DNA of 64,000 nt from Zanthoxylum bungeanum (Eukaryota; Streptophyta; Magnoliopsida; Sapindales; Rutaceae). Every line of letters begins with the position of its first letter. Positions within the stretch are counted from its first letter, which is position 1. Where the stretch lies: positions 62,001 through 126,000 of the forward strand of contig SKCR01034761.1 of assembly GCA_019454045.1 (NCBI GenBank), read 5' to 3'. The position numbers and the translations under genes are program-made. Under the pieces are notes generated by a model. That model worked only from the letters and a program-made list of their open reading frames with translations, was not told where the DNA came from and searched no databases. Positions 17,496-63,720 of the stretch are shown here, one piece after another.

Positions 17496-17496
17496 C

Positions 17497-17507: not shown

Positions 17508-19126
17508 TGTGGACAATTATGACCCATAGCGTCACTATTTGTACAGATCATGGTGTTCTTGTACAATTAACTATGTGACAAAGGAGATTGCACTCTTATC
17601 ATTTGTGATTAGATCACCAAGATGTATAAATGATGAGAGGTCCCTATGATTTGTTCCTAGACGGAGAATGATATGAGACAGTATCAGTCCACGAAGGATA
17701 AATCATTAAATATCCATAGTCAGAGTATTATCGAGATCGGACATCGATAAATATGTAAAAGACTAGTATTACACTTGTGCGCGTTGTGAGGGCACAACGG
17801 CATAGTTCTCATATATTTGGGTATAGGATACTCATGCAAGTGTAATAGGAGGTTGTGTTTTACTGATGGTACGGGAAACAGCTTCGCTCTAGATAGACCC
17901 CCTCGGAATTCCATTGGTAGTATAACTATGTGTCTATGGAAGTCCGAAATCAGGGTAGGTGTATTTGGTCTTAACCTGAGACTTGCACCGTTAATACTTG
18001 CGACAATCAATATACTTTGGTTGCGGTCGTCCAGGGTTTTAACAGGTTCTGTGTACGCCAATACTGGGTATATTGAGAATCGTAGTGTGTTGGGTGTGAT
18101 GTCAAGATGGAAGTGTAACTCCAGTCATATGGAGATGATGGTCACGTATGATACGAGATTGGTTCTCTTAAATGCTACAGCTATCGGCATAAAATGACAA
18201 GGTCATGTTTATCCGATTATAGAGACTAGTCACCAGATATCCGACATGTGCTTCGTACGGGGCAGACACAATTCCAGCCCCAGGCCTAGCACGTGATCAT
18301 CCGATACTGGACAGAAATACGCAATACTACGGTATACTACGCTTGATATAGATCCTTTATTCCAGTAAGGATATTTCTGGAGAATTGGGTAGGCATGGCG
18401 CTTTGCTAGAGGCCAACCTTGTCTTGTAAATCGGTATAAACGTAGTACGAGGTACTTACGTGTTCGGATAGTCCGACGACCGAATTTACTACCAACATAT
18501 CCGAGGATCTCATGGGTCGCTTCCCAAAGATTCACTGATGACGTATGACTCGCACTCTATATTAATCTGGGATTAATTAGAAGAGAGAGAAAATTAATCT
18601 GGGATTAATTGCCGTGATATTTTATCTGGGATGAAATATCAATTAAAGAGAGATAACGATTAATTTGGAATTAATCGAGAAATTAATATATTTGATATAT
18701 TAAACGAAATTAGATTTCGAAGCGGAATTAAAATTAGATTTTAATTCGGCCGAACGAATTAATTTAGAATTAATTCATTAATGACGTGAATAGTGATTTT
18801 GCTAGGCGTAATCATTTAATTACGACGCAACGGAAAATTCTTTATTTTGGAATTAGTGAACCCGAGCCCGAGATTATTTGCGAGGGCATTCGCATTTCGA
18901 ATTCGAGTGCGGCACGTCAAATCGCTAGTCGCATCAAGCGTCAAATCACAAGTCACTTTGAGTGATGTGACTTGACAACTTGATGGATTGAGTGATGTGA
19001 GTGGTTGGGGCTTTAATGGTTTGACTTTTAAAAGCCAAATTCAAGTGAAATTCATTTGAAATTCAAATGTGTGTATATAATACACAAATTTGGAAACCAA
19101 CCACAACATTTCTCTCTTCCTCAACA
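17508..19126 (+). repeat. 3' LTR of copia B with a 3' deletion
   Basis: It starts TGTGGACAATTATGACCC and matches LTR2 up to TCTCTCTTCCTC (equivalent to 11222). It then jumps to the terminal CAACA, losing about 380 bp including the R/U5 end. The element end and target duplication are intact, so the loss is internal to the LTR. Confidence 0.88.
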
Positions 19127-19131
19127 GTTAT

Positions 19132-23642: not shown

Positions 23643-24096
23643 GGAAAACAATTAACTAATACACATTTTCCATTCTCTCTCCCTTCTCACGGTTGGAGTC
23701 ATTTTTCTCTCCCATTCACACCCAAGGGGCTGCTGCTTCCTATTCTATTTTCTGGTTTGACTGAGAGCACCAAGGAGAAGCCAGAGTGATTTTTGTGGTA
23801 AAAATCAAGAGTGCTAGCACACAATGGAGCCTTACAAAGGTGATAGGGAAACCGCACACGTGAGCATGGAATCACATCACGAAAGCTTGGAGTTTGGAAG
23901 ATGATCCAAAGCCGAAAATGGAGGACTATTTCTATGCCACTGCCGTGAGTCTTGGAGCACCATGGAAGGGAGAAAAGTTTTGTTCTTCACCGCATCGCCT
24001 CAACCGATCGATGTAAGTATTCTGCAACTTCCTCGTGTATTCACATGTTATTTTCATTGCTTGATATGATCTTGGGATGCTTAGAAAATTCCAACA
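23643..24096 (+). repeat. 3' LTR end fragment of copia A
   Basis: This matches 8455-8909 nearly base for base, including TTAACTAATACACATTTTCC and the ACAATGGAGCCTTAC segment, and ends TTCCAACA. It is followed by the CTTTT duplication. Confidence 0.9.
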
Positions 24097-24101
24097 CTTT
24101 T

Positions 24102-26025
24102 AAAAGATGAAGTGGTTATTTAATGGTTGTGTAATAAATCGGTTTACTAACCTAGAACACTAAATTATGCAAAAGCCTTTGTCGATGGTCAGACGCAAAT
24201 ACCCAGTTTAACACAATTGAACCATATGTCTATGTCAACCAAATTATCTGGATTCATAATGTTTAAGTTCCAATTATGGCTACCCCCGCCCGACAGGTTT
24301 ATGTCTATCCTGTAAGGAAATCTATTAAAGGGTTATCTATCCTCAAGGAAGATCGTGGGCTATTAAGTCTAAGGCTGAAACCTAAAATTCCTTTGTCAAG
24401 TTTATTTTAGATTTACCATATCAATCTTATTGGTGATCAGACAACAAGAAGAATTAAGCTTAAGAGTTAATAAGTAAACCTTTAAATTACCCAAACTATA
24501 AAATAACCCCTTATAAACCGGTGATATTAGAATTCATCACAACCCCAGATAACTAACTTAGTTACAACACATAACTAAGGCTAGTAAAAAGATAAAAGTA
24601 AAAGACATAAAGTAAAAATGCTGAAAAGTAATTGCGGTAAAGTAAAAGCTGAAAAGTAAATTACAATAAAATAAAATGTTAAGGTAAAATGATCAACTTT
24701 TACTATTTACTATTTGGATATCTCCCTTAATATAATATATTAACTTGTGATTATTTTACCAACCAGCCATATAGGCGGTAACCTGATTAAGTCAAATTAA
24801 GTCCAACCAGCCATAAAGGCGGTACAAAAATAAACCAGCCATATATGCGGTAAGAAAATTTAATTACCAACAGACCAATCTGGCGGTATCCTTGATTAGT
24901 CAGGTTTAAACCAGATTAAAATGAATTACCAACCGACCAATATAGCGGTATCCTTTTTAAGTCAATATTTTAGATAGTGAATATATTATATTTAAGGGAG
25001 ATTAATCTAAATAGCAACAGTAAAAGAATTACCTTTCACCCTAACTGGGGAAGTTACCTCCTCATGGTGAATAGTAAAAACTGTAAAAAGTAAAGAAAGT
25101 AAATTACTATTATTACAGAACGTAATTAAAATAATTACAAAACTAAAATTTAAAAGAAACTAGATAGAAAACTCTTATTTACATTAGAGAATTCAGAGAG
25201 GAAGGTACATCTGAAACTGAAATTTCAAGCTATATTTATAGGCGTCAGTAGGGGGTTGGTGTCGCGATGCCCAGCTCGCGTCGTGACGTGGAATTTTGTC
25301 GACGTGGCAGCTTCTGGTTCATCGCGTGGGATTCTGGATAAGGTGATAAGGTGACACATTGAAAGGTGGTTGAGAGCTCAATTATTGTGACACGTTGCGA
25401 CTCGTGATTGGTTGATTACAGATTCTTATCCACCACGTGTCATTCGGATAAATGAGTCAATAATTGGTGCTGATGTGGCGACATGTGGCGAAAGAGACTG
25501 TCAGCACCATAGAATGATGACAAGTGGCACACTGTGATTGGTTGATGATGACGTGGCGATGATGTGGCATTTTGACTCGGTCAACCGGTGATGTGGATTA
25601 TGACGTGGCAGACACGTGGAGTGACACGGTCAACCGGTGATGGTGACTGTCGGCACCGTAGGATGATGACACGTGTCACAGTGCACATTAGCAGATCGGC
25701 TGTGGTGGTGACACTTGGCACGGCGCACGTTAGCAAAGTCAAATTTCTCAGATTCTGACTTGTGGACCTGACGCACGTTAGCACTGTTCGGCGCACGTTA
25801 GGAGTCGCGACGCCAAAGGCTTGCGCGTCGCGACCCGCCCAAATTTCCAAAATGTCCTTTTGTCTAATTTTCACTATTTTGGCCCAAATCACCTCCAGAG
25901 AGTCCTGAAACTTTATTTATCTACAAAATAACACAAAACACATCAAAATATTCACAAAACTCAAGAAACTATACAAAATATTAAGTTAAATGAGTGGGAG
26001 ATAGTGATATAATTACCACTCATCA
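24102..26025 (-). repeat. Athila-A copy I 5' LTR, outer piece (U3 and R), with promoter
   Basis: This continues the LTR from 6910, ending at the minus-strand start TGATGAGTGG (26025). With the inner piece the LTR is about 2.19 kb. On the minus strand U3 (26025 to about 25245) is rich in ACGT-core motifs (25430, 25549, 25600-25620, 25668) and GCACGTTAGCA words (25680-25800), with TCGCGA sites near 25263 and 25806-25832. A TATA box (minus TATAAATATA, 25240-25231) follows. Downstream is a block of about five degenerate repeats of the ACCAACCGACCAAT..GGCGGTA type (24757-24960). Confidence 0.85.
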
Positions 26026-26033
26026 TGAAGATA

Positions 26034-27214: not shown

Positions 27215-28565
27215 AAATATTTTTTTTTATTTCTATTTTCGTATTTTATGTACACATATTGTAGAGTTTTAATTTTGTGTGTTATTTTTGTAGGAAAAAG
27301 CACAGACGGAGCATTTAAGGCAGAGCATTGAGTGAAGACGGGAGAAATCACGGAATAGTGTTTGACAAAAATCACGAATATAAAAAATCAATTTATTAGA
27401 GATGGAATGAGTAAGGAGATGACTCTTGAGATGCATCCTAGTGGATATGTTCGTTGAATGAATGGAAATTTGCATACACTATCCAAAAAAAAATATTTAA
27501 AAAATTTCTAATAATGAGATTGTTTGGCTTAGTAAAACGTTCTAGGAAATGATAAATGCTAATTTCATTTTTATCCTATACTTTGAGCATAATATCTAGG
27601 TCAGACTCATCTGCACTAGAAAATATAATTTTAAAGTAGTTAGATAATAAGGAATTGACGAAGTGACTAGTTGAAATAATCGGTGGACGATGATTGACTG
27701 TTTCCTTGAATATCTGTTTCTGTTTGCATTTATTTATGATGTGCGGTATGATGATGATAGTGATATAAAAAAAATGACTAAGCTTTTACTTAGTAACCGG
27801 ACATCTTACCTAGCCAGCAGTGATTGTTCACGTCAAATAGTTCGGCTTGAGTTTGTTAGATAATAAATAAGCTTCTACTTAGTAACCGCCCAGTAAGCAA
27901 TGATCGTTTGCGTCAAACAGTAGAGCTTAACTAGTTTAAAAATAAAGCTTTGACTTAGTAATCGGACATCGTACCTCAGTAAGCAGTGATTGTTCGCGTC
28001 AAACAGTAGAGCTTAAAAAAAAAACCTCATACCACACTTTACGGATATTATAGCAGACAAAATAATTTTTTTAGAGATTCAGGTTGGTTTTACCCATCAA
28101 CTACTGAGAATTGAGACAAACTCACCTAGTTAGTTACTTAGAATCAAAGCAATTTACAAAGTTATTCACACACACACTTAGATTCTGATTTAGATACTTT
28201 GTTCAAAGGAATCGATTTTAGTTGTAGTGTGCATTTTGAAGATTCCTTTAACTTTGTCGCTAGACATTCTTTGAGGACATTGTATATATAGTTATTATTT
28301 TTGTTTATTTCTTTTGTTTATTTTTTTACATTGCGTGATTGCATGGGCATGTAATTGAAGTTTGTGGGTATCATCATTGTACACCCTCACGAGACTATAA
28401 CTCGTCCACTAGGGACACCTAGGGGTTTAAAGGCTTGTTGCATACGCTAAATGCAATCGTGATCCCTACGAAAGTGGCCTCGATTAATTTAGTTTTAATT
28501 TGTTTATTTTATTTTGTTTCTGTTTGTTTTGCTCGAGGACTAGCAAAATATTAGTTTTTGAGGTG
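27215..28565 (+). other. 3' untranslated region of copy V
   Basis: AT-rich, without a credible gene. It contains three direct repeats of about 80-90 bp (27777-28012). It also has the CTCACGAGACTATAACTCGT and CTAGGGGTTTAAAGGCTTG tracts, which recur on the other strand at 47800-47850 and 59720-59780, and a weak polypurine tract before 28566. Confidence 0.7.
27777..28012 (+). repeat. Three direct repeats in copy V 3' UTR
   Basis: Each unit has ACTTAGTAA, CAGTGATTGTTCGCGTCAAA (or a close variant) and TAGAGCTT or TTCGGCTT. Unit starts are near 27780, 27872 and 27950. Copies III and IV carry a two-unit repeat of different sequence at the same place. Confidence 0.75.
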
Positions 28566-30112
28566 TGATGAGCCAAAAATATATCAATATTTACTACCTC
28601 TTTAACTTAATATTTTGTATAGTTTCTTGAGTTTGATGAACGTTTTGTTGTGTTTTTGTTTATTTTGTAGATAAATAAAATATTAGGACTCAATGGAATC
28701 AACTCGGGGCTAAAATGATGAAAAATAGATTTAAAAAATGGCAAAAATGGAATTTCACAACTCATGTCGCGACGCGTAGAACCTCTCCATCGCTACTCGT
28801 CAATATCATGTGCCGAAAGCAGAGCTGCCGACACGAGGCAATAAATATTCAATGTGTCACAACCCCACAAAGTCTACGCGTCCCGACACCCAAGCAAAAT
28901 GCGTACACGTGTCAAGCATCTCAGCGCGTTGTGAAGCGTATGACATTCTGCGTCGCGACGCCGGCCCGGAGTTTTGCCTATAAATAGCAGCTAATTTCAT
29001 TTTCCATTTTCATACTTTCCTTAAGATTTCTATTAAGGAGCTTAAGGATTGTATCTTGTTTGTATTTATTTTCTGTATTTTAATTATGTAGTTTTATTTT
29101 TAGTAATAATAGTTTGTGTATTTTTATTTTCTTTACGTTTAGTAATTAATTTCCGATGGGGAAATGGTGAAACCTTTAATATGATAATTTAGGTTAATCT
29201 CACTTATATTATAATATAAAAATTATAATTTAATAATATGGATTAATGTTGATACCGCCTCTATGGCTGATTTTATTTATTTGACATAATTGGATACCGC
29301 ATAACTGGTCGGTCTTTAGGTGACAGATGAATACCACCTATATGATTGGTTTATGGATAAATAATAACACCGCCTTTATGGCTGGTTTGACTTAATTATC
29401 AGGTAACACTGGCAATTATTATATTATAATAAAGTGAGATTTCTACATTTGAAATATTAAAGGTGGATCCCCTAACCCCCATCATTTTATTTTTAATCTA
29501 GGGAAGTGTTGAAGAACAATATTCACGAGTTGAATAATTGATTTTGTTTATATAATGTGTGATACTTTGGCTTGTTTATTTATTCTTAACCTTAATGTTT
29601 CTTGTTGCCTTAGATTCAATACCTCACCATCTCACCTTAGAGATTTCCTTCGAGGATAGACATATACTTGTCGGGCGTAGGTAGCCACGGTTGGAACTTG
29701 ATCTTAATAAATTCAGAGTTGCTTAGTTAACATAGGAATATAAATAATTGGGTTACTGTGGGTGTTTGCATCTTACCATCGGAAGAGGGTTTTGCATATC
29801 TTCGTGTTCTAGATAAACGAACTGATATATTACTCATGTATAGGAGAATCAATTTATCATTAGAGTAATATTGGACGGATTCACAACCCTATATGTTTTC
29901 TTTATTATTAATTTTTCTTTGTTTTTATTTTTATTTATTTATTTAAATCCATATTCAACCAACAACCAATCTCTTCCTACCTCAATTAGATACATGTAAA
30001 TACATAGCATCAATAATTAACATCGTGAGAATTAAGTCCTTGTGGAATCGATATTTTTATACTACTTGAGCGATACGTGCGCTTGCGTAACGTCTGTGTT
30101 TATCACTGATCA
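28566..30112 (+). repeat. 3' LTR of copy V
   Basis: This 1,547-bp LTR runs from TGATGAGCC to CACTGATCA. TCGCGA palindromes lie at about 28767 and 28952, and a TATA box (TATAAATA) at 28979-28986. The GGCGGTA-type repeat block, in plus orientation (ATACCGCC), is at 29240-29410. The end resembles the Athila-A LTR ends (ATCGATATTTTTATACTACTT). The five bases after it are GGCAA; the matching duplication would be left of the window. Confidence 0.8.
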
Positions 30113-30668: not shown

Positions 30669-31320
30669 TTATAGATTAAGATTCAAGTCCACTCTACGCT
30701 TCTTGCCATAATCGTTACATGACCAGTCCAACTTGGAAAGAATTGAGTCGATTCTTGGTTCATATGCTAACAGTAGGTTGATTGATTCATCAGGTTTTCC
30801 TGTAGTAAGATCAATATCTTTTGCTAGTTTCAAAATTAGCCCGAGTCTTTTAGCATCCTCAAGAAATTCTAAAAGAAAATCGAAAAAATGACCTATATTA
30901 GGCAGTCCAATAGGTTTTCGATGAATGTTCAAATTTACCCATAATGCAACTGTGAATATTTCTTTCAATGTGCTCTGCCTACCTGGTAAAGCAATAAAAG
31001 TGTCAACATGATTAATCATTTTAGTAAGTCTTTCAGACATACCTGAGATAATGAATTCTTCTCCATTCGATTTTCCAATGAGATTTCCGTCTGCCAAAGT
31101 TTTTGGGATGATTTCTAAAACTTGACTACCTCTTTCTTTCACGGCCTTTGAACACATCCCATCAATCCAAGATTGCCACTGCCATATACGAAGTGCATGT
31201 TTATTTCTTCCATACTCTATCTGATTCTTTTACGGCTTCAAATATTCTATATTAGTTCCAGAAATAGATTTACAAAATAACACAGTTACTAGTAACTCGT
31301 CGTCTTGAAGTTTTCTCCAT
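30669..31320 (-). pseudogene. LOG-like cytokinin-activating enzyme, copy II (captured host gene)
   Basis: Match to LONELY GUY, cytokinin riboside 5'-monophosphate phosphoribohydrolase, which cleaves the ribotide to free cytokinin base in the cytosol. From the Met at 31320 a Ser/Arg-rich start (TSRRR) resembles the other copies. The first third is decayed, but YGSGNLGLMG remains near 31190-31160. From 31157 the frame is open for 162 codons: KAVKERGSQVLEIIPKTLAD, GMSERL, DTFIALPG, then KPIGLPN and a C-terminal WSCNDYGKKRRVDLNLNL. The catalytic PGGxGTxxE signature has decayed to PGRQSTLKE, so it should be inactive. Intronless, unlike host LOG genes as I know them. Confidence 0.85.
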
Positions 31321-31649: not shown

Positions 31650-32108
31650 CTATGGGGGGATATGCCTCCCATCCAATTTTCTTACAAATTGGAAAATACG
31701 ATCTTTTAAAGTCAGATTCCCGAGACTATATTGTTGTCATTCTTTTTGAAATTGTTTATGCAAATTGCTAATCACTCTATGAACATGTCTACTAGGATGC
31801 GTCTTAGGAATCAATGATATATCATCTAAACACTCTTTACTCAAGCCATCTCTAATTAATTGAATTTTATCTCCGTGATTGTCAGACACCATTCCTAAAG
31901 AATGACAATGAGTGTTGCACGTCGAGGGTGCACATTTATAACCAGAACCTCCTAATTTTTCAGCACTACGTTTCTTAGTATATGTGTTTTTTCCTAAACC
32001 GGGCATGTAAGAAATCAAGGAGTCAGATAACTCATATGCCAAACGAACCATTGCTTCATTTACCTAATGAATATCACTAGGAATACCATGGATTATAAGA
32101 AGCCTTAT
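31650..32108 (-). pseudogene. Cys-rich small protein, copy II, C-terminal three quarters
   Basis: Continues the gene whose start is at 33594, after the solo LTR. The frame at 32051-31737 holds LSDSLISYMPGLGKNTYTKK and, past the basic stretch, YKCAPSTCNTHCHSLGM. The first Cys of the motif is lost (GSGYKC). A TGA at about 31735 interrupts it, after which SLGNLTLKD and VRKLDG continue to a stop at 31650-31652. See the copy IV entry (61868-62416) for the family argument. Confidence 0.75.
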
Positions 32109-44416: not shown

Positions 44417-45189
44417 TGTAATACCCCGGTTAGATCGGTCAAACAGATTGAATCGTCAAGCATAAAATTTTAAAATTCATAAATTAATAGAAAAATAGGA
44501 TTCATATCTTAGGAATCTCGTCCGGAGGTCCTAGACAAGTTTTCAGTTTCAGCACATTTACTATTCATCGGATTCAATAGGCAATTCTTTCGTATTCCAA
44601 GCATATATTTTTCATACGAACTATGATTTTTATGAATTTTATATCCTTAAAAAAATAAGACCAAGACCTACAACCTCTGTGTTGAACGATTTCTCAAATT
44701 CGGATCCGATTAGGTCAAAAATACAAGTCAAAATCGCGTGAAAAGTAAAACTCGTGACTGCTCTTTAAATTACAATATTTTTCCTTTTTTTACATTATTT
44801 TATTAATAAAAGCAGCCCCTTCTATGTCTATATAAATAGTACTATTACTTCATCTCTTTCAATATAAAAAAAAAGTGAATAAGGAAGCTCCCTCAAGCCA
44901 TTACTAATCCTTGAGCTTCTCTCCATTTCTCAAGCAACCAATGAAGATACTTACCTCATTCTTCATGAAAGTAAGCTTCTTAACTCATTTATCTTCTTTA
45001 ATTTCAATTTTGGGCATAGAAAATGAAAGCCCCAATTCATATATAAACCCTAGCTTTTCATGATTTTGTATTTTTCTTGTAATAGAGTTTGTAGCATGCA
45101 TTTTCATACACTTTATGATAAATTACTCATGCAGTGAGCTTCCTTTTGATGAATGCCCAAATTTTTTTCTTTCCCATAAGAGGCTGCTC
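44417..45189 (+). repeat. LTR fragment related to the 40191 LTR
   Basis: Starts TGTAATACCCCGG inside the SIRE-like integrase. It shares its plan with the 40191 LTR: a TATA box TATATAAATAG at about 44829, a TTCATCTCTTTCAATA tract after it (compare 40605-40626), and an AGGAAGCTC segment. It stops at about 45189, where Athila gag sequence begins, so only the first 770 bp remain. Confidence 0.6.
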
Positions 45190-45558
45190 GGTTGTAATTG
45201 AAAGTACCGCAAACTTCTAGGAAGTTGCTGATGTGGGCATTAGGATCTTCAGTTGCATTTCCCCCAAACTGTACTGACTGCTGAATCATCTGAATGCATG
45301 TTTTGATGTCACCCGCATTTGCTGGTAAGGGAGGAAGTATATACAAGAAATGAGTCTGTCAACCACCAGAATGGTTCTGTCTCGAAAGGGAATCGGTGGT
45401 GCAACGTTCAAAGATTCAGGTTCCATGTTAATGATTGCTTCTTGGCCTTCTCGCCTTTCCCTTCTCAACTGTCTGATGGTTTTTTCAATCTCTGGGTCAA
45501 GCGGTTGAAGTTCAATGCTTCTGGTTCGTCTCATATAGTGTCTGAGAACCTGAAACAC
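45190..45558 (-). pseudogene. gag: Athila-A gag N-terminal fragment
   Basis: Starts MRRTRSIELQPLDPE (Met near 45534) and continues IEKTIRQLRRERREGQEAI and INMEPESLNVAPPIPFRDR. A frameshift near 45340 follows, then QQSVQFGGNATEDPN, HISNFLEVCGTFN. It has CAG where copy I has a premature TAG. Sequence ends at about 45189 against a foreign LTR fragment. It belongs to the LTR at 45668-47685 as its downstream internal region. Confidence 0.85.
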
Positions 45559-45642
45559 AATAAAACAAAAACAATAAGTAAAAAGAAAATTAGATACAAG
45601 TAAAGGTATCTAACCTTAAAATTAATACTGAAAGATAAATAA

Positions 45643-45660
45643 GTCCCCGGCAACGGCGCT
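45643..45660 (-). other. Athila-A primer-binding site
   Basis: Minus strand AGCGCCGTTGCCGGGGAC, 7 bp from the LTR edge. It is the best preserved copy of this site in the window and fits the Athila consensus form apart from the first base. Confidence 0.85.
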
Positions 45661-45667
45661 AAAAACT

Positions 45668-47685
45668 TGACCGGCGCGTAATCACACACGTATAATGCAA
45701 GCGCACGTATCGTTCAAGTAGTATAAAAGTATCGATCCCACGAGGTCTTAAAACCTTTTTTTATTAATTATGAAGTTAAATGTTTAGAAGTATCTAATGG
45801 ATTGGTTGTTTGATTTGGTGGTGACTTTAAAACTTAAAACAAGTAAATAAAATTGCTTGAAAGTAGATTGAAGAAAATTCAAATTTATAAAACTATCCAG
45901 GTTTAAGAATCCTTCCAATATCTTTTTAAAAGATGAAGTGGTTATTTTACATTTGTGTGATATATTGGTTTATTAACTTGGAACACGAAATTATGTAAAA
46001 GCCTCTTCCGATGGTCAAATACAAATACCCAATATAACCCAATTAATCATATTCCTATGTTAACCAAGTTATCTGAATTCATTAAGATTAAGTTCCAATT
46101 ATGGCTACCCCCACCCGATAGGTATATTCCTATCATCTAAGGAAATCTCTTAAACGGTTATTTATCCTCAATGAAGATCGTGGGCTATTAAGTCTAAGGT
46201 CTTAAACTTAAAATCTCTTTTCCAAGTTCATTTTAAGTTTACCGAATCAATCTTATTAATTGGCCAGTTAACAATATGCATTAAGACTAAGGCTCAATAA
46301 ATAAACTTTTATATTACCCAAACCATAATTTAACCCCTTATAAACCGGTGATATTGGACTTCATCACAACCCTAAATAATTGGTTTAGTTACGACACATA
46401 TTTACGGCTAGTAAAAATAAAAGACATAAATTAAATGCTGAAAGTAAATGCTGAAAAGTAAATGCTGAAAGTAAATTGCTGAAAAGTAAATGCTGAAAGT
46501 AAATTGCTGAAAAGTAAATAAAGTAAAAGTACAATAAAAGAAAATGATGAGGTAAAAGGATCAACTTTTATTACTTTTATTTTTGATATCTCCCTTAATA
46601 TAATATATTAACTTTGCATGATAATTACCAACCAGCCATATAAGTGGTATCTAGATTAAGTCAAATTAATAATTAATTACCAACCGACGAATCAGGCGGT
46701 ATCCAGTTTAGTCAGGTTAAAACCAATTTAAATAATTACCAACCAATAAATATGGCGGTATCCTCGTTAAGTCGGGTTTCAACTAGTTTATTTATTATAA
46801 TTAAAAGAGATTAATCTAAATATTAGTAATAAAAGTTTTACATTTTACCCCAACAATGGGGAGTTACCTCTTCATTACTGAAAAGTAAAAACTGAAAATT
46901 AAAGAAAGAAAAGTATTGTGCGTAAAAGTAAATTACAGAAAGTAAAAACTGAAAAGTAAAGAAAAGAAAGTGCGAAAGCTGAAATTAATTACTGAAAACT
47001 GTAAATAAACAAACAAGATACAATCATCTTAGTATTCTTAAGGAATTCCTTAGAAGAAAGTATGAATTTACAAATGAAATGGCTTGGTATTTATAGGCAA
47101 AATTTTGCCTCCATCAAATGCTTTATTAATTGATCCACTAATTGCTCCACCAATCCATTATTAATTGCTCCACTAATTGCTATCATGTTTGGTGGGAGTT
47201 TGACTATTTTTATTATTTATTTATTTATTTATTTTTTGCTTTGAAAATGACTTTAATAATTACACATAACACACTTCCGGATGTTTAATCACTTTCGGTC
47301 ATGAAATATTCCGAATTCGAAATTATTTTGTCTTTCAAAGTTGTAGATCTTTGAGTCTTCTTTAATTTGGAACTTGAATCAGCTCAAAACTGATAATGGA
47401 GTAAAAGGTTATTTCCAAAATACGACAGATGCGCAAAATTGGAATTTCCAAAACTTCACTTCGTTAAAACGCCCTTTCAAGTTTCTAATCTCCAAAATTA
47501 ATATGTCAAGTCCAATATTTGCCCTTATTTGACCCACATTTTGTCCTAAATGATTTCATTGAGTCCTAATATTATTTTATCTGCAAAATAAACTAAAACA
47601 TATCAAAACGTTCATCAAACCCGAGAAACTAAACAAAATATTAAGTAAAATGGGCAGTAAATATTGATATATTTTCTGCACATCA
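45668..47685 (-). repeat. LTR shared by copy III and the 45190-45660 internal fragment
   Basis: 2,018 bp, minus-strand TGATGTGCAG to CCGGTCA. TATA box (minus TATAAATA) at 47095-47088. Internal repeats: a GGCGGTA-type block (46627-46770) and a TGCTGAAA(A)GTAAA array (46433-46520). This copy lacks the TCGCGA palindromes of the other Athila-A LTRs. Confidence 0.9.
46433..46520. repeat. 14-16 bp tandem array in the LTR of copy III
   Basis: About six units of AAATGCTGAAAGTA / AAATTGCTGAAAAGTA. The same words occur once or twice at 24616-24660 and 58376-58440, so the array expanded in this copy. Confidence 0.85.
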
Positions 47686-47698
47686 CACCCCCAAACCT

Positions 47699-49024
47699 AA
47701 CATTTTGCTAGTCCTCGAGAAAAAAAATAAAATAACATAACATAAATAATAAAGTTAAGCCACTTTCATAGGGATCACGATTGCATTTAGTGTATGCAAC
47801 AAGCCTTTAAACCCCTAGGTGTCCCTAGTGGACGAGTTGTAGTCTCGTGAGGGCTTACAACAACGATACCCACAAACGTTTTACAAAAGTAAAAAGATAA
47901 TAAAACTAATGCACACAAAACCAAAAAGACAAGAGAAAATAGAATAAAGAAGTTAGTGACTAAACAGATGAAACATATAATCCAAGTCAATAGTTGTTTT
48001 GTTTCATTCTAAATTATCGAATAAGTAAATTCTTCGATTATTTTTACCAATCTCCATATACACAGTCGACAAAATATTAATCAACTCATTTTTTCCACAA
48101 TAGTCACAAGTACAGTTGAGAAGAAAGTAATATTTTTGTCCTAAAGTTATATCAGATTTCACACCTTTTTTTTAAGCAATGGAATAATTTTTCTGATTTT
48201 TTTCTTTGATTTATTTATTTATATACAAAATCATCCATCTATGTAGCGAGTTTTGGGTCAGTGACTCCCAAACCAGTTGCTTTAGGGCACTCGGTGTTAA
48301 GACACCCATACGGACTTAATTACTCAGACTTCATATATATATATATTTGGCAACATCTTTGATCCATGTAACGAGCTTTGGGTCAGTGACTCCCAAACCA
48401 GTTGGTTTTAGGGCACTAGGTGTTAAGACACCCTTACAGACTTAATAACTCGGATCTCAGACATTTTTTATTTTCTTATACATTTTTTTATTTTTTATTC
48501 CTTTTTTTTTATCCCATCGCTTTTTTAGATGCTTCCTCCAATTAAACTAGAGCACTTAATATTACAAACTTTTCAATTATAGCTCATGTATGTATGTTAC
48601 TATGTATGTTGATAGTACCTGTCAACTGAACATATGAAGATTCATTTTAGTCAGTATTATAGAGAATTCACAAATTAAATTATTCAAAAGGAAATAAACA
48701 AAAATTAACTTGTTCCGAAATAGGTTGAGATACGTCTCAGTAGTGGAATTTCCTTACACAACTATCTCTTACACCAATTTCACCCGATTAATCAAATTTA
48801 AAACATAAAAAAATAAAATATTTTTGTAATTTTTAAAATTTTTCAGTTTTTTTTGTATTTTTCGAAAAATTTTAGACTAAAAATAAAACAATAAAAACAA
48901 GATCAAATTAACTATTCCCTTGCCCCAAACCTAAATGAGACATTGTCCCCAATGTCTTAAACAATAGAATAATAGTTTAGAAAATGGTACCTGGTTAGCT
49001 GAAATTCTACATCTAAGTGAAAAA
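47699..49024 (-). other. 3' untranslated region of copy III
   Basis: No gene. It contains a two-unit direct repeat at 48236-48470, the CTCGTCCACTAGGGAC-type tract near 47815-47840, and an inverted repeat GACATTG-TCCC-CAATGTC at 48940-48957. The frame at 47787-47990 is not conserved in copy IV. Confidence 0.8.
48236..48470. repeat. Two-unit foldable direct repeat in 3' UTR, copy III
   Basis: Units of about 118 bp starting near 48236 and 48356. Each contains TTTGGGTCAGTGACTCCCAAA, whose ends TTTGGG/CCCAAA pair, and GGTGTTAAGACACC, a 5-bp stem with a TAAG loop. Units end in GGACTTAAT or AGACTTAAT and are separated by an AT-rich spacer. The same pair is in copy IV at 60182-60412. Confidence 0.88.
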
Positions 49025-49674
49025 TTACAGGTTAAGATCCAGATTTATCCGACGCATCTTACCACGATCATCATCGGACCAGTTTATCTTGGAAAGAATG
49101 GGGTCAATTTGTGGTTCAAAGGCTAAGATTTGATCAATTAAATATGGGGCAGTTCTGGCAGTTTAGAGAAGTTCTTTTACAGGTTTTGACACGAACCCAT
49201 TTCTACGGGCATCATCAAGAAACACACATAGATATCATAGAATCCTTCAATGTTAAACAGTCCAAGTGGTTTCTAGTGTATGTTCAGGTTTGCCCAAGAT
49301 AACACTGTAAAAATTTCCTCTATTGTGCCCAAGCCACTGGCAAAACAATAAAAGCATTAGCACGGTTAATCATTTCTACCATTCGTTCAGAAATACCTGG
49401 CATAATTAGTTTCGTCGTTTGATGATCCAATAAGATTCGCCTCTGCCAAAGGTTTTGGGATGAATCCCAAAACTTGGCTGCCTTCATCCTGTACAGCCTT
49501 TGAAACGATCCCCATTAGTCCAAGATTGCCACCGCCATATACTAACTGCATATTCGTTGCAGCGATGACTCGACCCAATTCCTGTGCTGCTGCTACATAT
49601 TCTGGTTTAACACCAACACTAGTACCACAAAACACACAAATGTTTACAACTCGTCTTCTTGAAGTGGCTTCCAT
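49025..49674 (-). pseudogene. LOG-like cytokinin-activating enzyme, copy III (captured host gene)
   Basis: Intronless LOG-family gene, Met at 49674, stop TAA at 49025-49027. Residues 1-95 are open: RRRVVNICVFCGTSVGVKPE, AAQELGRVIAATNMQLVYGG, GNLGLMGIVSKAVQDEGSQV, LGFIPKPLAEANLIG. Then a frameshift near 49415, ISERMVEMINRANAFIVLP, and a 1-base deletion inside the PGG codons of the catalytic PGGxGTxxE signature (49345-49335 region). It continues ANLNIH, an indel near 49230, FLDDARRNGFVSKPVKELL, a TAA, then an intact tail ending DRGKMRRINLDLNL. So broken in about four places but recent enough that every family motif is readable. Confidence 0.9.
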
Positions 49675-49927: not shown

Positions 49928-50475
49928 CTATCCGTCAGGGACAAGATTCCCATCCAATTTTCTTATAAATTGGCAAACAGGGTCTTTTAGAGTCAAATTC
50001 CCGAGACTTAACTGTTGTCTTTCTTTTCGGAGTTGTGTATGTAATTTGCGGATGGCTATATGAACATATCCACTGGGATGCATATCAAGAGTCGAAGATA
50101 TATCATCTAAAGACTCTTTACTCAAGCCATCCCTAATGAATTTCATTTTATCTTCGCGATTATCAAACACCATTCCTAAAGAATGACAACGAGTATTACA
50201 ATTCCAGCGTGCACATTTGTAACAAACACCCATTTGCTTAGCTCTACGTTTATTTGCATAGGTGCTTTTTCCAAAACCAGGCAAATAAGAATTATAAGAA
50301 TCAGAATACTCACCTGCTAATCGGACCCGTGCTTCGATTACCCAATGAATGTCATTAGGAATACCTTTGATCATCAGAAGTCTCATCCGTTCCAAGCGAG
50401 TTTTGTAGACTTTCATCAGAGAATTTTGAGGGAGAGAAAGAAATTGCTTGTGAAGATTTGTGAGAGCTTCAACAT
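49928..50475 (-). pseudogene. Cys-rich small protein, copy III
   Basis: The cleanest reading frame of this gene: 162 codons open from the Met at 50416 to 49928. By comparison with copy IV the true start is the ATG at 50475, now out of frame by one base. Order: a helical N terminus (LERMRLLMIKGIPNDIHWVI), GFGKSTYANKRRAKQMG with a basic run, CYKCARWNCNTRCHSLGM with the C-x2-C-x4-C-x3-C motif, then GLSKESLDDISS, a Gln/Arg-rich segment and RKLDG near the end. No signal peptide or membrane segment, so it is not an envelope protein. See the entry at 61868-62416 for family. Confidence 0.85.
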
Positions 50476-50640: not shown

Positions 50641-51960
50641 ACTTTCTTTTTGTCGCTCAAATGATTCTCCCAGTAGTGCTTGACACGCTGGCTGTTAACT
50701 TTGAATGTGTTACTCGACTTGGGATTGTATATCTCAATAACTCCGTAGGGTAACACCTGCGTAATCACAAATGGACCTTACCATTTTGATTTCAGCTTTC
50801 CAGGAAAAAGTTTCAACCTTGAATCGTACAACAACACTTGCTGCCCTGGTTCCAAATTTACGCACTATTTTTCGGTCATGCAATTTCTTGGTCTTCTCTT
50901 TGTACAGTTTGGCATTCTCATAAGCCTGTAGGCGAAATTCCTCCAACTCATTGAGTTGGTGAATTCTTTTCTCTCCTGCAGCTTGTGGATCAAGATTCAA
51001 CTTCTTCAGTGCCCAGTATGCCTTGTGTTCAAGCTGAAATGGCAGATGGCATGCTTTCCCGAACACCATTTGATATGGGGACATACCAATGGGTGTCTTA
51101 TAAACTGTCCGGTAGGCCCATAATATGTCATCTAGTTTTTCAGACCAGTCCTTCCTTTTTGATCCAACGGTTCTTTCCATGATTCGTTTGATCTCCATGT
51201 TTGAAACTTCAACTTGCCCGTTTGACTATGGATGATAGGTTGTGGCAACCTTATGAGTAACTCTGTATTTGGATAGGAGTGCATCGAAGTATCTGTTGCA
51301 GAAAAGAAATGTGAGCCACCATCGTTGATAATTGCCCGAGGTGTCCCGAAGCGAGTGAAAATATTCTTTTTAAGGATTTTGATCACCACTTTTGAATCAT
51401 TGGACGGCACTACAATCGCTTCAACCCATTTGGAGATGTAGTCTACTGCAACCAGTATGTACAGGTTTCCGAATGATGGAACAAATGGTCCCACAAAAAT
51501 TAATAACACATACATCAAATATCTCCACTTCCAGAATGTTTTGCAAAGGTCCTTCATTTCTTCTGGAAATATTTCTCGTTCTCTGGCACCTGTCACATTA
51601 AATAGCAAATAGATAAGCATTTTTAAAAAAAATGGGCCAGAACAAACCTGATTGTAGGACTTTGGCTGCAGTTTTGTTTCCACTGAAATGTCCGCCGTAA
51701 GGTGATGAATGGCAATGCTGCAGGACACTATTGACCTCCTCTTGTGGAACACACCACCTCAATAATTGATCCGCACAGCGTTTGAATAGGTATGGCTCAT
51801 CCCAGACATAGTGCTTGACTTCTTTGAAGAATTTCTTCCGTTGCTGAGTTTTCCATTCCAACGGCCATTTTCCTGATACTATGTAGTTGACATAGTCAGC
51901 ATACCAAGGGACTTCTTGTTGTTTAATGGCAACATCTGTTTATCTGGAAACGTTTCTTTG
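50641..51960 (-). pseudogene. Athila-A integrase, copy III
   Basis: The zinc-binding part has [15 protein letters not shown] (51861-51598 frame). The core has [40 protein letters not shown] and INDGGSHF with the second catalytic Asp. The region of the first Asp is frameshifted (IFVGPF), and the catalytic Glu segment is out of frame (51250-51200). The C-terminal part 51198-50734 has [20 protein letters not shown] and [20 protein letters not shown], then decays before the GPF/Y module. Not functional. Confidence 0.88.
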
Positions 51961-55998: not shown

Positions 55999-56028
55999 TG
56001 AAAAAAAAGCGGTTCGCGTAGTGAGACG

Positions 56029-56669
56029 ATGGCAGAAGGCGGAAATCAGCAATCGTCAGGGAATCCGGCCACATATTGGATGAAGAAGATAGAAAAAAAC
56101 ATAAGGAATGACAGAGAGGATAGTCAGGCCCTCCTAAAAACCATGATGGACCGACTGGGGAGAATGGAAGGGGGAACCGCGAGAAGCCTGAAACCAGAGC
56201 TAATCAAAGAAGAGGAGAGATAGCAGATGGAAAGAGGGTTGTGGATACAAGTGAGGACGATGGACCTAGGAGGAGGGAGCCTTACGGGATAAAATCCATA
56301 GTTGTGGAAAAAGATTCACAAGCAGATGCCACATGGGAAGAAGAAGAAGAGAGACTTTCGACAGATTCCTCTTATGATAGTCTCCGCTACACTAGAAGAG
56401 GAGACACAGAGTACGACGAAACTGTGCGGGAGATTCCAAGGCGTAAGGAACATCGCACCCGGGGCAACAGACATGAAGAAGAGCACAGAAGGCGACATGG
56501 CGGCCCAAATAGCGAGGTAAAATTGGTTAAAGAAATAGATGGACAAGTGGAGGACAAGCCTCAAAACAGATATATGAGACACCTGGGAATGGATCGGGAT
56601 CACATGCGGAAGTCAGAAGGCAGCCCGCAGCTGCTTTGCAACTCTCTCACGAGAAACCCTCTGCATTGA
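56029..56669 (+). pseudogene. gag: Tat gag N-terminal part
   Basis: Frame 1 starts MAEGGNQQSSGNPATYWMKK (56029), followed by a Lys/Glu/Asp-rich helix, and stops at 56221-56223. A second frame 56241-56669 is very rich in Arg, Glu and Asp (RRREPYGIKS, RRKEHRTRGNRHEEEHRRR). This resembles the charged N-terminal region of Tat gag. The capsid domain is absent. Confidence 0.65.
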
Positions 56670-56927
56670 GGAGGGTACCAAAAAACGGCAGAGGAATGAA
56701 GACGGAGGAAAAGCCAGTGGAGATCCTAGTCCTCGGCCAAACAGAATAGCCCGGCTAGCGGCGGTTGAGGAATTAGAAGGGATAGAACTCTTCGGACCGG
56801 AAAAAAAACATAAAGATAGGGGGAGGCTTGGACAAGACCCTGAGACAGAGCATACTAGAATGTCTAAAAGAGTATATGGACATCTTCGCGGGGGACATAC
56901 TCGACGCCCATTACATAGGACAGTTGG
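56670..56927 (+). pseudogene. Tat gag-pol scraps
   Basis: Contains a LECLKEYMDIFAGDI segment near 56845-56895, which resembles the linker just before RT in Tat elements (usual form KEYxDVFAW). Nothing else of pol remains. Confidence 0.5.
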
Positions 56928-57112
56928 CGCCGAGGCCACTTCAAACAATCGGCTCGGGGCTGGAGTTCGTTCCGCCGATGCCACTTCAATCATCGGCTCG
57001 AGGCTGGAGTTCGTTCCGCCGAGGCCACTTCAATAATCGGCTCGGGACTGGAGTTCGTTCCGCCGAGGCCTCTTCATCGGCTCGGGGCTGGATCTCGTTC
57101 CGCCGAGGCTGC
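56928..57112 (+). repeat. 44-bp GC-rich tandem repeat, about 4.5 units
   Basis: Units start CGCCGAGG (CGCCGATG in unit 2) at 56928, 56973, 57017, 57061 and 57101. Each contains ATCGGCTCG and GGCTGGA(G)TTCGTTC-type words. In-frame translation makes a repetitive peptide, which I regard as accidental. Confidence 0.88.
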
Positions 57113-57249
57113 TATACTATTTGACTCAGGGGTCGGGTTACATCCCACCGAGTCGTGCTTATTGGCCTGGGGACGGAACATTCCCCCCAGAACCAAATGT
57201 CTCTTTAGCTCGGGGTCCTCAGAATATTCAGGGACATACTCGATGCATA

Positions 57250-57607
57250 GGATCCGTGAGAATCATAGCACGGGGATGGATGATACCCCCGTGGCGATTG
57301 CTTACTCCAGTGTTACCGAACATAAGGAGGAACATGCCCTTAATGTGTCGAGTACTTTTTTGATCCTCACTTACCCGATGTAATGGATCCGTGGGAAAGC
57401 ATAGCACGGGGGATGATGATGCCCCGTGACGATTGCTATCAGTCAGTGATGTCGGACCTAAGGAGGAATATACCCTTAGTATCGCAGACACTCTTTGATC
57501 CATTCATCATTTGTATCCAAGAGAGGCGCAGCACGGGGATGCGTTACCCCTGTAGCGTGTGCTGCTCCAGCGTGGTAAGGAGGAGCCCTCGTACAATACA
57601 CAGGCTC
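57250..57607 (+). repeat. About 135-bp tandem repeat, third unit cut by Athila IV
   Basis: Units start GGATCCGTG at 57250 and 57385, and GTATCC at about 57513. Shared words are CATAGCACGGGG, GCGATTGCT or ACGATTGCT, TAAGGAGGAA and TTTGATCC. Typical Tat 3' region array. Confidence 0.82.
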
Positions 57608-59609
57608 TGAACGGCGTAAACACACACGTATAACGCAAGCGTACGTATCGTTCAAGTAGTATAAAAAGTATCGATCCCACGAGGACTTAATACCTAAGTT
57701 ATTAATTTTATGAGGTTAAATGATTACTAGTATCTAACAGGTTGTTTAATTGATTTGAAATGACGACGATTCTAAATTTAAAGATTAGTAAATAAAATTG
57801 TTCGAAGGTAGATTTTAAGAAAATTCAATATTAAAAAATATCTAGGGTTGTGATTTATTCCAATATTATTTAAAGATAAAGTGGTTATTTTATAATTGGG
57901 TAATATATTGATTTATTAACCTGGAACACTAATTTATGTAAAAGCCTCTTCCGATGGTCAATTACAAATACCTAGTATAATCCAATTGAACCATATGTAT
58001 ATGTCAACCAAATTACCTAGATTCATTATGATTAAGTTCCAATTATGGCTCCCCCGCCCGACAGGTATATTCCTATCCTGTAAGGAAATCTATTGAAAGG
58101 GTTATCTATCCTTAAGGAAGATCGTGGGCTATTGAATCTAAGGTCTTAAACTTAAAATCCATATGTCTAGTTCATTTTAAGTTTACCTAATCAATTTAAT
58201 TTATGGACAGTTAATTAAAGATCATTAAGATTAAGACTTAATAAATAAATCTTTATATTACCCAAATTATAATCTAACCCTTATAAACCCGTGATATTGG
58301 ATTTCATCACAACCCTAGATAACTAATTTAGTTACAACACATAACTAGGGCTAATACAAACTTAAAAGACATAAAATGAAAATGCTGAAAAGTAATTGCG
58401 GTGAGTAAAATGCTGAAAAGTAAATTACAAATGAAATAAAATGCTAAGGCAAAAGGAATTACTTCTACTACTACTAATTTAGATATCTCCCATAAAATAA
58501 TATATAAACTTGTGATAATATTTTACCAACCGACCAATCTGGCGGTATCCTGATTAAGTCAAATTAAGTCCAACCAGCCATATAGGTGGTAATTTTTGTC
58601 CATAATCCAGCCATAAAGGCGGTACCAAAGTAAATTTTTCAACCGACCAATCTGGCGGTATCCTTGATTAATCAGGTTTAAACCAGATTAAATTGAATTG
58701 TCAACCGACCAATATAGCGGTATCCTTTATTAATCAGTATTTTAAATAGTAAATATATCATTTTTAAGAGAGATTAATCTAAATAGCAATAGTAAAATAA
58801 TTACCTTTCACCTTAGCATAGGGAAGTTACCTCCTCATAGTGAATAGTAAAAACTGTAAAATAAGAAAGTAAATTACTATTATTACAAAAAGTAATTAAA
58901 ATTATTACAAAACAAAAATTAAAACGAAACTTAGAGAGAGAAGAATTCCCTATTTACATCAAATAAGAGAGAGGGAATGGTACACTGAAATCAAAAATTT
59001 CAAGCTCTATTTATAGGCGCGAGTAAGGTCCCAGCGTCGCGACGCTGGGTACAATTCAGCGTCGCGACGCTGGGTACAGTGAGACGTGGCCCATTCTCTG
59101 CTTGACACGTGGCAAGGCGGCTAAGAGGATAAGGTCGACACGTGTAATGGCGGCTGGAACTCAATTATGAAGCTGACGTCATTGATGACGTGGCACTGTT
59201 CATGATGTCATTGGTGACGTGGCACTGTTCATGATGTCATTGGTGACGTCATGATGATGTGGCATGCGCACGTTAGCGGATCTTCTGTGGTGGTGACACG
59301 TGGCACGGCGCATGTTAGCAAAGTCAAACTTCTCAAATTCTGACCAGTTGACCAGGCGCATGTTAGCAGATTCGGCGTATGCTGGGCGTTGCGACGCTGA
59401 CGGTCTGGGCGTCGCGACGCTGGAAATTACCAAAATGCCCTTTTTCGCCAATTTTCACTATTTTGCCCCAAATCACCTCCAGAATGTCCTGAAACTTTAT
59501 TTATCTATAAAATAACACAAAACACATCAAAATATTCACAAGACTCAAGAAATTATACAAAATACTAGGATAAATGAGTGGGAAATAGTGATAAAAATAC
59601 CACTCATCA
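57608..59609 (-). repeat. 3' LTR of Athila copy IV, with promoter
   Basis: 2,002 bp, minus-strand TGATGAGTGG to CCGTTCA. On the minus strand U3 runs 59609 to about 59020 with many ACGT-core motifs (59083-59310). Then come two perfect AGCGTCGCGACGCT palindromes 25 bp apart (59058-59071, 59033-59046) and a TATA box (minus TATAAATA, 59015-59008). The GGCGGTA-type repeat block is at 58527-58730. Confidence 0.9.
59033..59071. promoter_or_regulatory. Paired 14-bp palindromes beside the LTR TATA box
   Basis: AGCGTCGCGACGCT occurs twice in a 25-bp direct repeat, 18-63 bp upstream of the minus-strand TATA box. A further near-copy is at 59409-59421. Position and symmetry suggest a dimeric protein site; the binding factor is unknown. 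Confidence 0.55.
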
Positions 59610-60952: not shown

Positions 60953-61613
60953 CTACAGGAAATTAAAGGTAAGATCCAGATTAATTCTACGCCTCTTACC
61001 ACGATCGTCCTCGGACCAATTTATCTTTGATATGATAGGGTCAACTTTTGGTTCATAGGCTATGAATTGGTCAATTAGATCTGGAGCAGTTCTGGCAGTA
61101 AAGAGGAGTTCTTTTAAAGGTTTTGACACGAACCCATTTCTTCGAGCATCATCAAGAAACACACAAAGAAAATCATAAAACCATCAACGTTGTACAGCCC
61201 AATTGGTTTCTGGTGTATGTTTAGGTTCGCCCAAGATAGTACAATAAAAATTTCCTCCAATGTGCCCAAGCCACCTGGCAAAGCAATAAAAGCATCAGCA
61301 CGGTTAATTATTTCTATCAGTCGTTCAGACATACCTGATACGATCAGTTCCTCTCCGTTTGATGGTTCAATAAGATTTGCCTCTGCCAAGGGTTTTGGGA
61401 TGATTCCCAAACGTGACTGCCTCCTTCCTGTACGGCCTTTGAAACAATCCCCATTAGTCCAAGATTGCCTCCTCCATATATTAAGTGCATATTCCTTACA
61501 GCTAAGACTCGACCCAATTCCTGTGCTGCTTCTATGTATTGTGGTTTAGTACCAACAGTACTACCGCAAAACACACAAATGTTTTCAACTCGTCTTCTTG
61601 AAGTGGTTTCCAT
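60953..61613 (-). pseudogene. LOG-like cytokinin-activating enzyme, copy IV (captured host gene)
   Basis: Best preserved of three LOG copies. LOG removes ribose 5-phosphate from cytokinin ribotides in one step to give active base. Met at 61613; residues 1-68 open with RRRVENICVFCGSTVGTKPQ and MHLIYGGGNLGLMG. A 1-base loss near 61410 shifts frame. Then IIPKPLAEANLIEPSNGEEL, GMSERLIEIINRADAFIALP and the intact catalytic signature PGGLGTLEE (PGGxGTxxE), ANLNIHQKPIGLYNVDG. A second 1-base loss lies in a T-run near 61172, then FLDDARRNGFVSKPLKELLF and a tail with KRRRINLDL to 60953. About 220 residues, normal for LOG. No introns. The C-terminal tail fits one plant LOG subclade as I remember it. 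Confidence 0.93.
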
Positions 61614-61867: not shown

Positions 61868-62416
61868 CTATGCGTCAGGGACAAGCTTCCCATCAAATTT
61901 TCTTATAAATTGGCAAACAAGGTCTTTTTGAGTCAGATTCCCGAGACTTAACTGTTGTCTTTCTTTTTGAAATTGTGTATGTAATTTGCGAAAGGCTATG
62001 TGAACATGTCCACTGGGATGCGTCTCAAGAGTCGAAGATATATCATCTAAAGACTCCTTACTCAAGCCACCCCTAATGAATTTAATTTTGTCTTCGCGAT
62101 TTTCAGACACCATTCTAAAAGAACGACAACGAGTATTGCAACTTCATCGTGCACATTTGTAACAAACACCCATTTGCTTAGCTCTACGTTTCTTTGCATA
62201 GGTGCTTCTTCCAAAACCAGGCAGAGTTGAAATAAAAGATTCAGAAGACTCACCTGCCAATCGAACTCGTGCTTCAATTACCCAATGAATATCATTGGGC
62301 ACACTATGGATCGTCAGTAGTCTCATTCGTTCCAAGCGAGCTTTGTAAACTTTCAATAGAGATTTTTGTGGGAGAGAAGGAAATTGCTTGCGAAGATTTG
62401 CGAGAGCTTCTTCCAT
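61868..62416 (-). pseudogene. Cys-rich small protein with basic stretch, copy IV (carlavirus NABP-like design)
   Basis: About 182 codons from the ATG at 62416 to the stop at 61868, with one nonsense TGA at 62144-62146 (Trp codon TGG in copy III). Seen: N-terminal helix-like segment (ALANLRKQFPSLPQKSL), LERMRLLTIHSVPNDIHWVI, GFGRSTYAKKRRAKQMG, then CYKCAR and the rest of the C-x2-C-x4-C-x3-C motif, GLSKESLDDISS, and KFDGKL at the end. The layout hydrophobic helix, G-x-G-x-S-x-YA, basic run, Cys motif is how I remember the carlavirus cysteine-rich nucleic-acid-binding protein (Pfam Viral_NABP), an RNA-silencing suppressor. That link is inference. A retroelement zinc-knuckle derivative is the alternative. 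No membrane segment, so not env. Confidence 0.8.
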
Positions 62417-62556: not shown

Positions 62557-63720
62557 TTATGCTGGATCTGAAAGTGTGACACTTTCTTTTTGTCGCCCAA
62601 ATGATTCTCTCCAGTAGTGCTTGACACGCTGACTGTTAACCTTGAATGTGTTGTTGGTATTGGGATCCAGTAACTCAACAGCTCCATATGGTAAAACCTG
62701 AGTGATCACAAATGGTCCAGACCACCTAGATTTCAACTTTCCTGGGAAAAGTTTCAACCTCGAATTGTACAACAACACCTGCTGCCTTGGTTCCAACTGT
62801 CTGTGCACTATTTTTCGGTCATGCCATTTCTTTGTCTTTTCCTTGTATAATTTGGCATTGTCATAAGCATGTAGGCGAAATTCTTCCAATTCGTTGAGTT
62901 GGTGAAGTCTTTTCTCTCCTGCAGCTTGTGAGTCAAGATTCAACTTCTTCAGTGCCCAGTACGCCTTGTGTTCAAGCTCAACTGGCAGATGGCATGCTTC
63001 CCAAACACCAATCGATATGGTGACATACCAATGGGTGTTGTAAGCTGTTCGGTAGGCCCATAATGCATCATCTAGTTTTGTTGACCAGTCCCTCCTTGTT
63101 GATCCAACGGTTCTTTCTAGGATTCTCTTGATCTCTCTGTTTGAAACTTCAACCTGTCCATTTGACTGTGGATGGTAAGCTGTGGCAATCTTGTGAGTAA
63201 CTCCATATTTGGATAGGAGTGCATCAAAGTATCTGTTGCAGAAATGTGAGCCACCATCGCTGATAATTGCCCGAGGTGTTCCGAATCGAGTGAAAATGTT
63301 CTTCTTTATGAATTTGATCACAACTTTTGAATCATTGGATGGCAGTGCAATTGCTTCGACCCATTTGGAGACGTAGTTACAGCAACAGGATGTACAAGTT
63401 TCCAAATGATGGAACAAATGGTCCATGAAATCAATACCCTATACATCGAATATCTCCACTACCAAAATGTTTTGCAACGGTCCTTCATTTCTTCTTGAAA
63501 TATTCCCTGTTCTCTAGCACCTGTCACATTGAAAAGCAAAAAGATAAGCATCTTTAAAAAGTGTGGGCCAGAACAATCCTGATTGAAGGACTTTGCTGCA
63601 GCAGTTTTGTTTCCGCTGAAGTGTTCGCCGCCGTATGGTGATGAATGACAGTGTTGCAAAACACTGTTGACCTCCTTCTGTGGAACACACCATCTCAATA
63701 ATTGATCAGCACAACGTTTA
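62557..63720 (-). pseudogene. Athila-A integrase, copy IV
   Basis: Zinc-binding domain: [16 protein letters not shown] (63698-63459) with VTGAREQ after it. Core: GIDFM near 63435 (first catalytic Asp), [31 protein letters not shown] (second Asp), [16 protein letters not shown] (Glu). C-terminal: [49 protein letters not shown] and [14 protein letters not shown], the GPF/Y module, ending SVTLSDPA at 62557. The frame 63426-62557 is open for 289 codons. Frameshifts lie near 63430-63480 and a short one near 63010. All three catalytic residues are present. Confidence 0.92.

Follow-up and report, generated by a model that had tools for sequence, protein, structure and literature searches.

A LONELY GUY-derived accessory gene of plant Gypsy retrotransposons, with an altered hormone pocket and a C-terminal LxLxL tail, as a predicted recruiter of TOPLESS

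What might a retrotransposon gain from a gene for a hormone-activating enzyme? The question is raised by a stretch of 64,000 nucleotides from Zanthoxylum bungeanum (contig SKCR01034761.1 of assembly GCA_019454045.1, positions 62,001 to 126,000 of the forward strand), referred to below as the window. Retrotransposons of the Gypsy type in this window carry sequences of LONELY GUY (LOG), the gene family of the cytokinin-activating enzymes, and the original prediction for the locus was that of an element with a captured LOG gene that activates cytokinin and might thereby influence cell division. Our comparisons of these sequences with their relatives lead us to propose that the LOG-derived accessory protein is a predicted recruiter of the corepressor TOPLESS in the nucleus and not a maker of cytokinin, a reading to which we assign a probability of roughly 0.45.

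Pocket residues and the C-terminal tail of the LOG-derived protein

The LOG sequence is present in three element copies, designated II, III and IV, and like the other genes, motifs and LTRs located below for these copies it lies on the minus strand. In copy IV (60953..61613; profile matches and alignment to intact relatives) its pieces match PF03641 (5.7e-23) and PF18306 (9.6e-08) in a profile search, and each of three blocks shares ~81% identity with P0155, an intact relative. All three predicted signatures were found there, namely YGGGNLGLMG (61449..61478), ADAFIALP and the intact phosphate-binding/catalytic motif PGGLGTLEE (61252..61278), but the gene is not the intact one that had been envisaged, as the first and last of these signatures lie in different reading frames and two frame steps are needed for alignment with intact relatives. 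The gene of copy III (49025..49674; alignment to intact relatives) requires three frame steps and contains two stops, and that of copy II (30669..31320; profile matches and alignment to intact relatives) requires four steps, has its 162 terminal codons open (30669-31157) and reads PGRQSTLKE at the catalytic motif. All three LOG copies in the window are broken.

The intact relatives come from a search of 5.8 billion proteins with protein P0124, which gave 7,894 matches among 8,000 candidates; the best 120 of these and 34 proteins from another search amount to 138 different relatives. The counts given below are based on the 98 full-length relatives of 205-230 amino acids, 40 of the 138 having been dropped for length, and the LOG proteins used for comparison are 80 of bacteria (the best of 578) plus Arabidopsis AtLOG3 and AtLOG8. 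Named sources among the best 120 of the 7,894 matches include Reevesia with 15 entries (ten chromosome numbers), Paulownia with four, Populus with six (three of them LOGL10) and Xanthoceras with six. The family matches PF03641/TIGR00730 and has the LOG Rossmann fold, and the motif PGGxGTxxE occurs in 114 of the 138 listed relatives, some of the 24 without it being fragments. Against the NCBIfam LOG equivalog, a model that serves prokaryotes and with which AtLOG3 was not scored, three members reached 120-142 bits with a cut-off of 300. No relatives were found in scans of IMG/VR or in an initial scan of prokaryote genomes for which P0124 was the sole query.

Much of the LOG active site persists in these proteins: Glu121 and Trp128 are each kept in 97 of the 98, Arg98 in 89, and the glycines of PGGxGT in 95 to 97. 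Two residues of the hormone pocket have a different fate. Lys99 and Glu124 are missing together from 92 relatives and kept together in the remaining six, and they are present in 80/80 bacterial and 2/2 Arabidopsis LOGs; the bacterial set was retrieved with patterns taken from the retrotransposon proteins, and positions 99 and 124 lie outside these patterns. The window copies have Leu/Ile (IV), Met/Thr (III) and Leu/Thr (II) at the two positions. In copy IV the catalytic Arg98 and the following Leu99, which takes the place of the Lys of ordinary LOGs, are encoded at 61318..61323 (within MSERLIEI, 61309-61332), and the Ile at the position of Glu124 at 61243..61245, after PGGLGTLEE. According to the relevant passages of the study of CgLOG (PMC4979012; papers are cited here by PMC number for such passages), Lys100, the equivalent of Lys99, is part of both the adenine site and the prenyl site, and Glu125 of the prenyl site, and in CgLOGII, a bacterial type-II LOG, the change Lys156Ala at the equivalent lysine abolished activity (PMC5379747). 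The expectation of cytokinin activation is weakened by these losses, and an active LOG payload in which the pocket changes are tolerated seems unlikely to us, since it has to accommodate the absence of both residues from most relatives and from the window copies, with the lysine being essential in CgLOGII, and leaves a conserved tail unexplained.

That tail consists of a basic cluster, which 92 of the 98 relatives have within their last 18 residues, and an exact terminal LxLxL, found in 83. The LxLxL persists in 15 of 18 sequences after collapsing at 70% identity and in 94 of 127 when fragments that reach the tail are included; shuffled tails end in LxLxL in 0.46% of cases. Neither feature occurs in the 80 bacterial LOG reading frames (0/80 for each) or in AtLOG3 and AtLOG8, which end in KLCWEMERIGYSSEE and SWKVEELGDYPGQENKPQ, respectively. 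In the window, copy III ends in KMRRINLDLNL (49028..49060) and copy II in KKRRVDLNLNL (30672..30704), each followed by a stop, so that their last five residues are LDLNL and LNLNL; the tail of copy IV (60956..60997) reads KRRRINLDLTFNFL, with the terminal LxLxL degraded. A structure model has the tail disordered (predicted local distance difference test, pLDDT, below 50 at 204-212 and 214-217), which is what one expects of a short linear motif.

LxLxL is one of the two consensus forms of the ethylene-responsive element binding factor-associated amphiphilic repression (EAR) motif (PMC9956375), and the pathogen effector HaRxL21 binds TOPLESS through a C-terminal LMLTL (PMC7446885). It is the combination of the lost pocket residues with the basic and LxLxL tail that leads us to predict recruitment of TOPLESS in the nucleus rather than synthesis of cytokinin. 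The basic cluster would direct nuclear import, the tail would bind the TOPLESS corepressor, and the repression of host genes (of silencing or the cell cycle, for example) that might follow would be to the benefit of the element; the retained nucleotide site might bind a regulatory nucleotide or act on another substrate. A tree that includes 26 proteins of the family hints at how this state might have evolved. In its deepest retrotransposon branch (P0176 and P0236) the Lys and the Glu are retained and LxLxL is absent, P0172 retains both residues and has LxLxL, and the other 23 are without the Lys and Glu, which suggests that the basic tail came first, the EAR motif second and the change in the pocket last, provided that the deepest branch belongs to elements.

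Several observations weigh against the proposed recruitment of TOPLESS. A strict terminal LxLxL is absent from 15 of the 98 relatives, one subfamily ends in LDIDLNR, and a deep-branching group, which might consist of host genes, stops at KRRRLD or KKRRLA. The assignment of the relatives to elements rests on copy number and the literature, because the proteins are known without their flanks; AtLOG3 and AtLOG8 are the only ordinary host LOGs compared, since the sample is made up of top matches; and the agreement of the bacterial proteins in PGGxGTxEE is partly a matter of choice, given the patterns with which they were retrieved. The retained site is not universal either, as the catalytic Arg is lost in 9 of the 98.

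The hydrophobic residues at position 99 could furthermore mean a new substrate rather than a lost activity. The protein might then be an enzyme that cleaves other modified nucleotides, perhaps cleansing the pool for reverse transcription, with a tail that sets its location only. We regard this possibility as doubtful: it agrees with a nucleotide-binding and catalytic core that is mostly kept beside a base pocket altered in concert, but it comes with no candidate substrate and has no need of a terminal LxLxL. The motif might also serve for contact with proteins of the element itself, in the particle or the integration complex, and not be an EAR motif at all. EAR motifs are short, and in the effectors tested an LxLxL by itself did not suffice to bind TOPLESS (PMC7446885), a result that counts against the recruitment of TOPLESS as well as for such a contact. 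We nevertheless consider contact of this kind improbable, because the LxLxL stands at the extreme C-terminus behind a basic cluster and characterised EAR motifs are often N- or C-terminal (PMC7446885).

Maintenance and origin of the gene

The three copies in the window differ enough from each other for selection on the LOG gene to be estimated. Copies III and IV share 84.7% identity over 4.5 kb and 85% identity in LOG, and copy II is 67-68% identical to either of them in LOG and closer to the intact relative P0121 than to P0155. The ratio of nonsynonymous to synonymous substitution rates (dN/dS) in LOG is 0.35 for III and IV, 0.32 for II and III and 0.27 for II and IV, with Fisher p values of 6.5e-06, 3.6e-10 and 2.1e-13 and bootstrap upper limits of 0.56, 0.50 and 0.41, respectively; shifted-frame controls, run on the III-IV pair only, gave 0.88 and 1.65. 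Since decay after insertion is contained in these values, working copies were presumably under stronger selection. The LOG gene has been kept under purifying selection in the element lineage and has not evolved at the neutral rate.

The prediction that LOG is a standing component of the elements is borne out by these ratios, by the many intact relatives elsewhere and by the occurrence of the gene in three copies in the window, which represent at least two subfamilies. One segmental duplication, considered as a source of all three copies, is ruled out: one base in three differs between copy II and the other two, and the dN/dS values stay well below 1, which leaves no room for a single duplication of dead DNA. 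A passenger without function, brought along as the element is copied, would be in keeping with the broken state of every copy in the window, but this idea is already contradicted by the dN/dS values and by dozens of diverged full-length relatives with invariant residues, and we consider it highly improbable.

As to the donor, the tree, which also contains 24 bacterial LOGs, unites the 26 retrotransposon proteins in one group (support 100) and places AtLOG3 and AtLOG8 together as its sister (support 100). Plain identity leaves the matter undecided, an Arabidopsis LOG being a better match than the best of the 24 bacterial proteins for 11 of the 26 only. The element gene likely derives from a plant gene for the LOG hormone enzyme, as judged from the tree; a bacterial donor is disfavoured by the joining of the retrotransposon group to AtLOG3 and AtLOG8. 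Two host LOGs are too few for the donor subclade to be named.

The neighbouring gene and the element

Overlooked in the original prediction was a second accessory gene, which precedes LOG in all three copies and resembles viral genes for nucleic-acid-binding proteins (NABP). In copy III (49928..50470; open reading frame (ORF), profile match and alignment) it has no stop over 180 aligned codons, in copy IV (61868..62416; alignment) it has one internal stop, and in copy II (31656..32108; alignment) a fragment is joined at 32108 to the end of a long terminal repeat (LTR). The copy III protein matches Carla_C4 (1.3e-06) and Viral_NABP (3.9e-04) in a profile search, and the intact relative P0001 matches Viral_NABP at 1.9e-06, with similarity to PF05515 and PF01623 that covers 83 and 32 of its residues. 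PF05515 is matched by 75 and PF01623 by 76 of 82 NABP-like element proteins. These two families of flexivirus nucleic-acid-binding proteins, which according to the family descriptions are encoded by RNA viruses, resemble most of the element proteins by profile; they differ in their viral source, and the similarity covers only part of P0001.

A search with E values up to 0.01 gave 276 relatives of the NABP-like gene, and the 120 listed include proteins from Acer, Xanthoceras, Orobanche and Rhamnella. Among these 120, 103 have a cysteine finger of the form C-x2-C-x4-C-x3-C, and 87 have three consecutive basic residues within positions 61-90. In the Rhamnella protein P0096 the NABP-like part is fused to what appears by eye to be the end of an integrase, so the position of this gene behind integrase is probably not peculiar to the window. 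The dN/dS values for the NABP-like gene among the window copies (0.47-0.53) are unconvincing as a sign of selection, one shifted frame having given 0.57; the structure model is poor (pLDDT 68.8, predicted template modelling score 0.32), and P0001 has no relative in the PDB at E up to 1. The zinc-finger protein may provide nucleic-acid binding for the same task as its LOG-derived neighbour. A protein of LOG fold whose base pocket is rewritten and which ends in an EAR motif would then, together with the product of the adjacent RNA-virus-type NABP gene, make up a two-gene module by which the element represses host genes via TOPLESS, in the manner of the effectors of plant pathogens, an extension of our proposal that we offer as tentative.

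As to the element itself, upstream of LOG in copy III the matches to reverse transcriptase (PF00078, 52781..53587), RNase H (PF17917, 52068..52370) and integrase (H2C2 and rve, in several frames, 50737..51939) have the domain order of Gypsy; copy IV has an integrase ORF (rve, PF00665) at 62557..63426. The LTRs downstream of IV and III extend over 57608..58923 and 45668..46960 as judged by similarity. LOG had been predicted to occupy the same place in all three copies, and it does lie between integrase and LTR in III and IV. Copy II, however, is a fragment in which no integrase precedes LOG, because an LTR end directly adjoins its NABP-like fragment; after copy II comes LTR sequence of the opposite orientation. 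The fusion at 32108 of this LTR end to the middle of the NABP-like gene is a deletion or recombination junction.

A stretch that resembles a primer-binding site (45644..45661) adjoins the LTR at 45668..46960, so that this LTR borders on a 5' leader too. The LTR ends at 6642, 32108, 45668 and 57608 are alike, and such a stretch follows those at 6642 and 45668 only. It presumably corresponds to the tRNA-Asp type of Athila. The lineage is likely Athila, a label that fits the domain order and the primer-site-like stretch. An archaeal-type second RNase H is a feature of Tat elements (PMC6317226), and no second RNase H domain was seen in the pieces scanned, no dedicated model having been run. Captured by this Gypsy lineage, the plant LOG gene would have become one of its accessory genes.

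LTRs with element interior on both sides and a primer-site-like stretch on one are found at 6643-6911, with 24088-26026, and at 45183-48000, which indicates that the copies stand in rearranged arrays with shared LTRs. An inverted remnant of a related element lies at 27383-27493, where an NABP-like piece is oriented along the plus strand, and at 28360-30102, with reversed interior and LTR similarity. The region 6907-24102 is a nested insertion with internal duplications (12456-16875 and 19137-23616 at 86%; 9611-11220 and 17506-19122 at 94%). The stretches 1370-6571 and 56000-57608 are richer in GC (0.45-0.47) and seemingly interrupt elements; the former contains an ORF on the plus strand (1650-2183) with a weak match to Tf2-1 SH3 and an integrase-like look.

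Relation to known systems

A LOG payload in retrotransposons is not new, contrary to what had been supposed. A paper that credits Steinbauerova 2011 (PMC9289625) reports the YgdH (LOG) domain in consensus sequences of Gypsy elements from Citrus sinensis, C. clementina and P. trichocarpa and was the only account of LOG in retrotransposons that we found in the open-licence literature; "lonely guy", "lysine decarboxylase" and "nucleic acid binding" are absent from PMC7264820. These Citrus and Populus elements share the LOG domain in a plant Ty3/gypsy setting with those of Z. bungeanum, but the relevant section and passages of the account mention neither the tail nor the lost pocket residues nor an NABP-like neighbour. 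The last three features, which we did not find in the open-licence literature and of which Steinbauerova 2011 may describe part, are what is new here. Compared with the plant type-I enzymes AtLOG3 and AtLOG8, most element relatives are without Lys99 and Glu124 and have an added basic and LxLxL tail. With HaRxL21 they share a C-terminal LxLxL on a parasite protein that acts in plant cells, but HaRxL21 is an unrelated pathogen effector for which the binding of TOPLESS was demonstrated (PMC7446885), whereas it is predicted here. The AlkB-carrying Gypsy elements of Phalaenopsis also have an accessory gene with an enzyme fold fixed in a plant Gypsy lineage, though for a different enzyme with activity shown in vitro (PMC9289625).

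If our proposal is true, a mobile element would possess an effector-like gene directed against one of the main corepressors of plants, which would connect transposons with the effectors of pathogens and with hormone enzymes. Database entries annotated as cytokinin riboside 5'-monophosphate phosphoribohydrolase, among them the three LOGL10 entries of Populus, could then be members of the family that perhaps do not activate cytokinin. Through the NABP-like partner, an exchange of genes between retrotransposons and plant RNA viruses becomes open to test.
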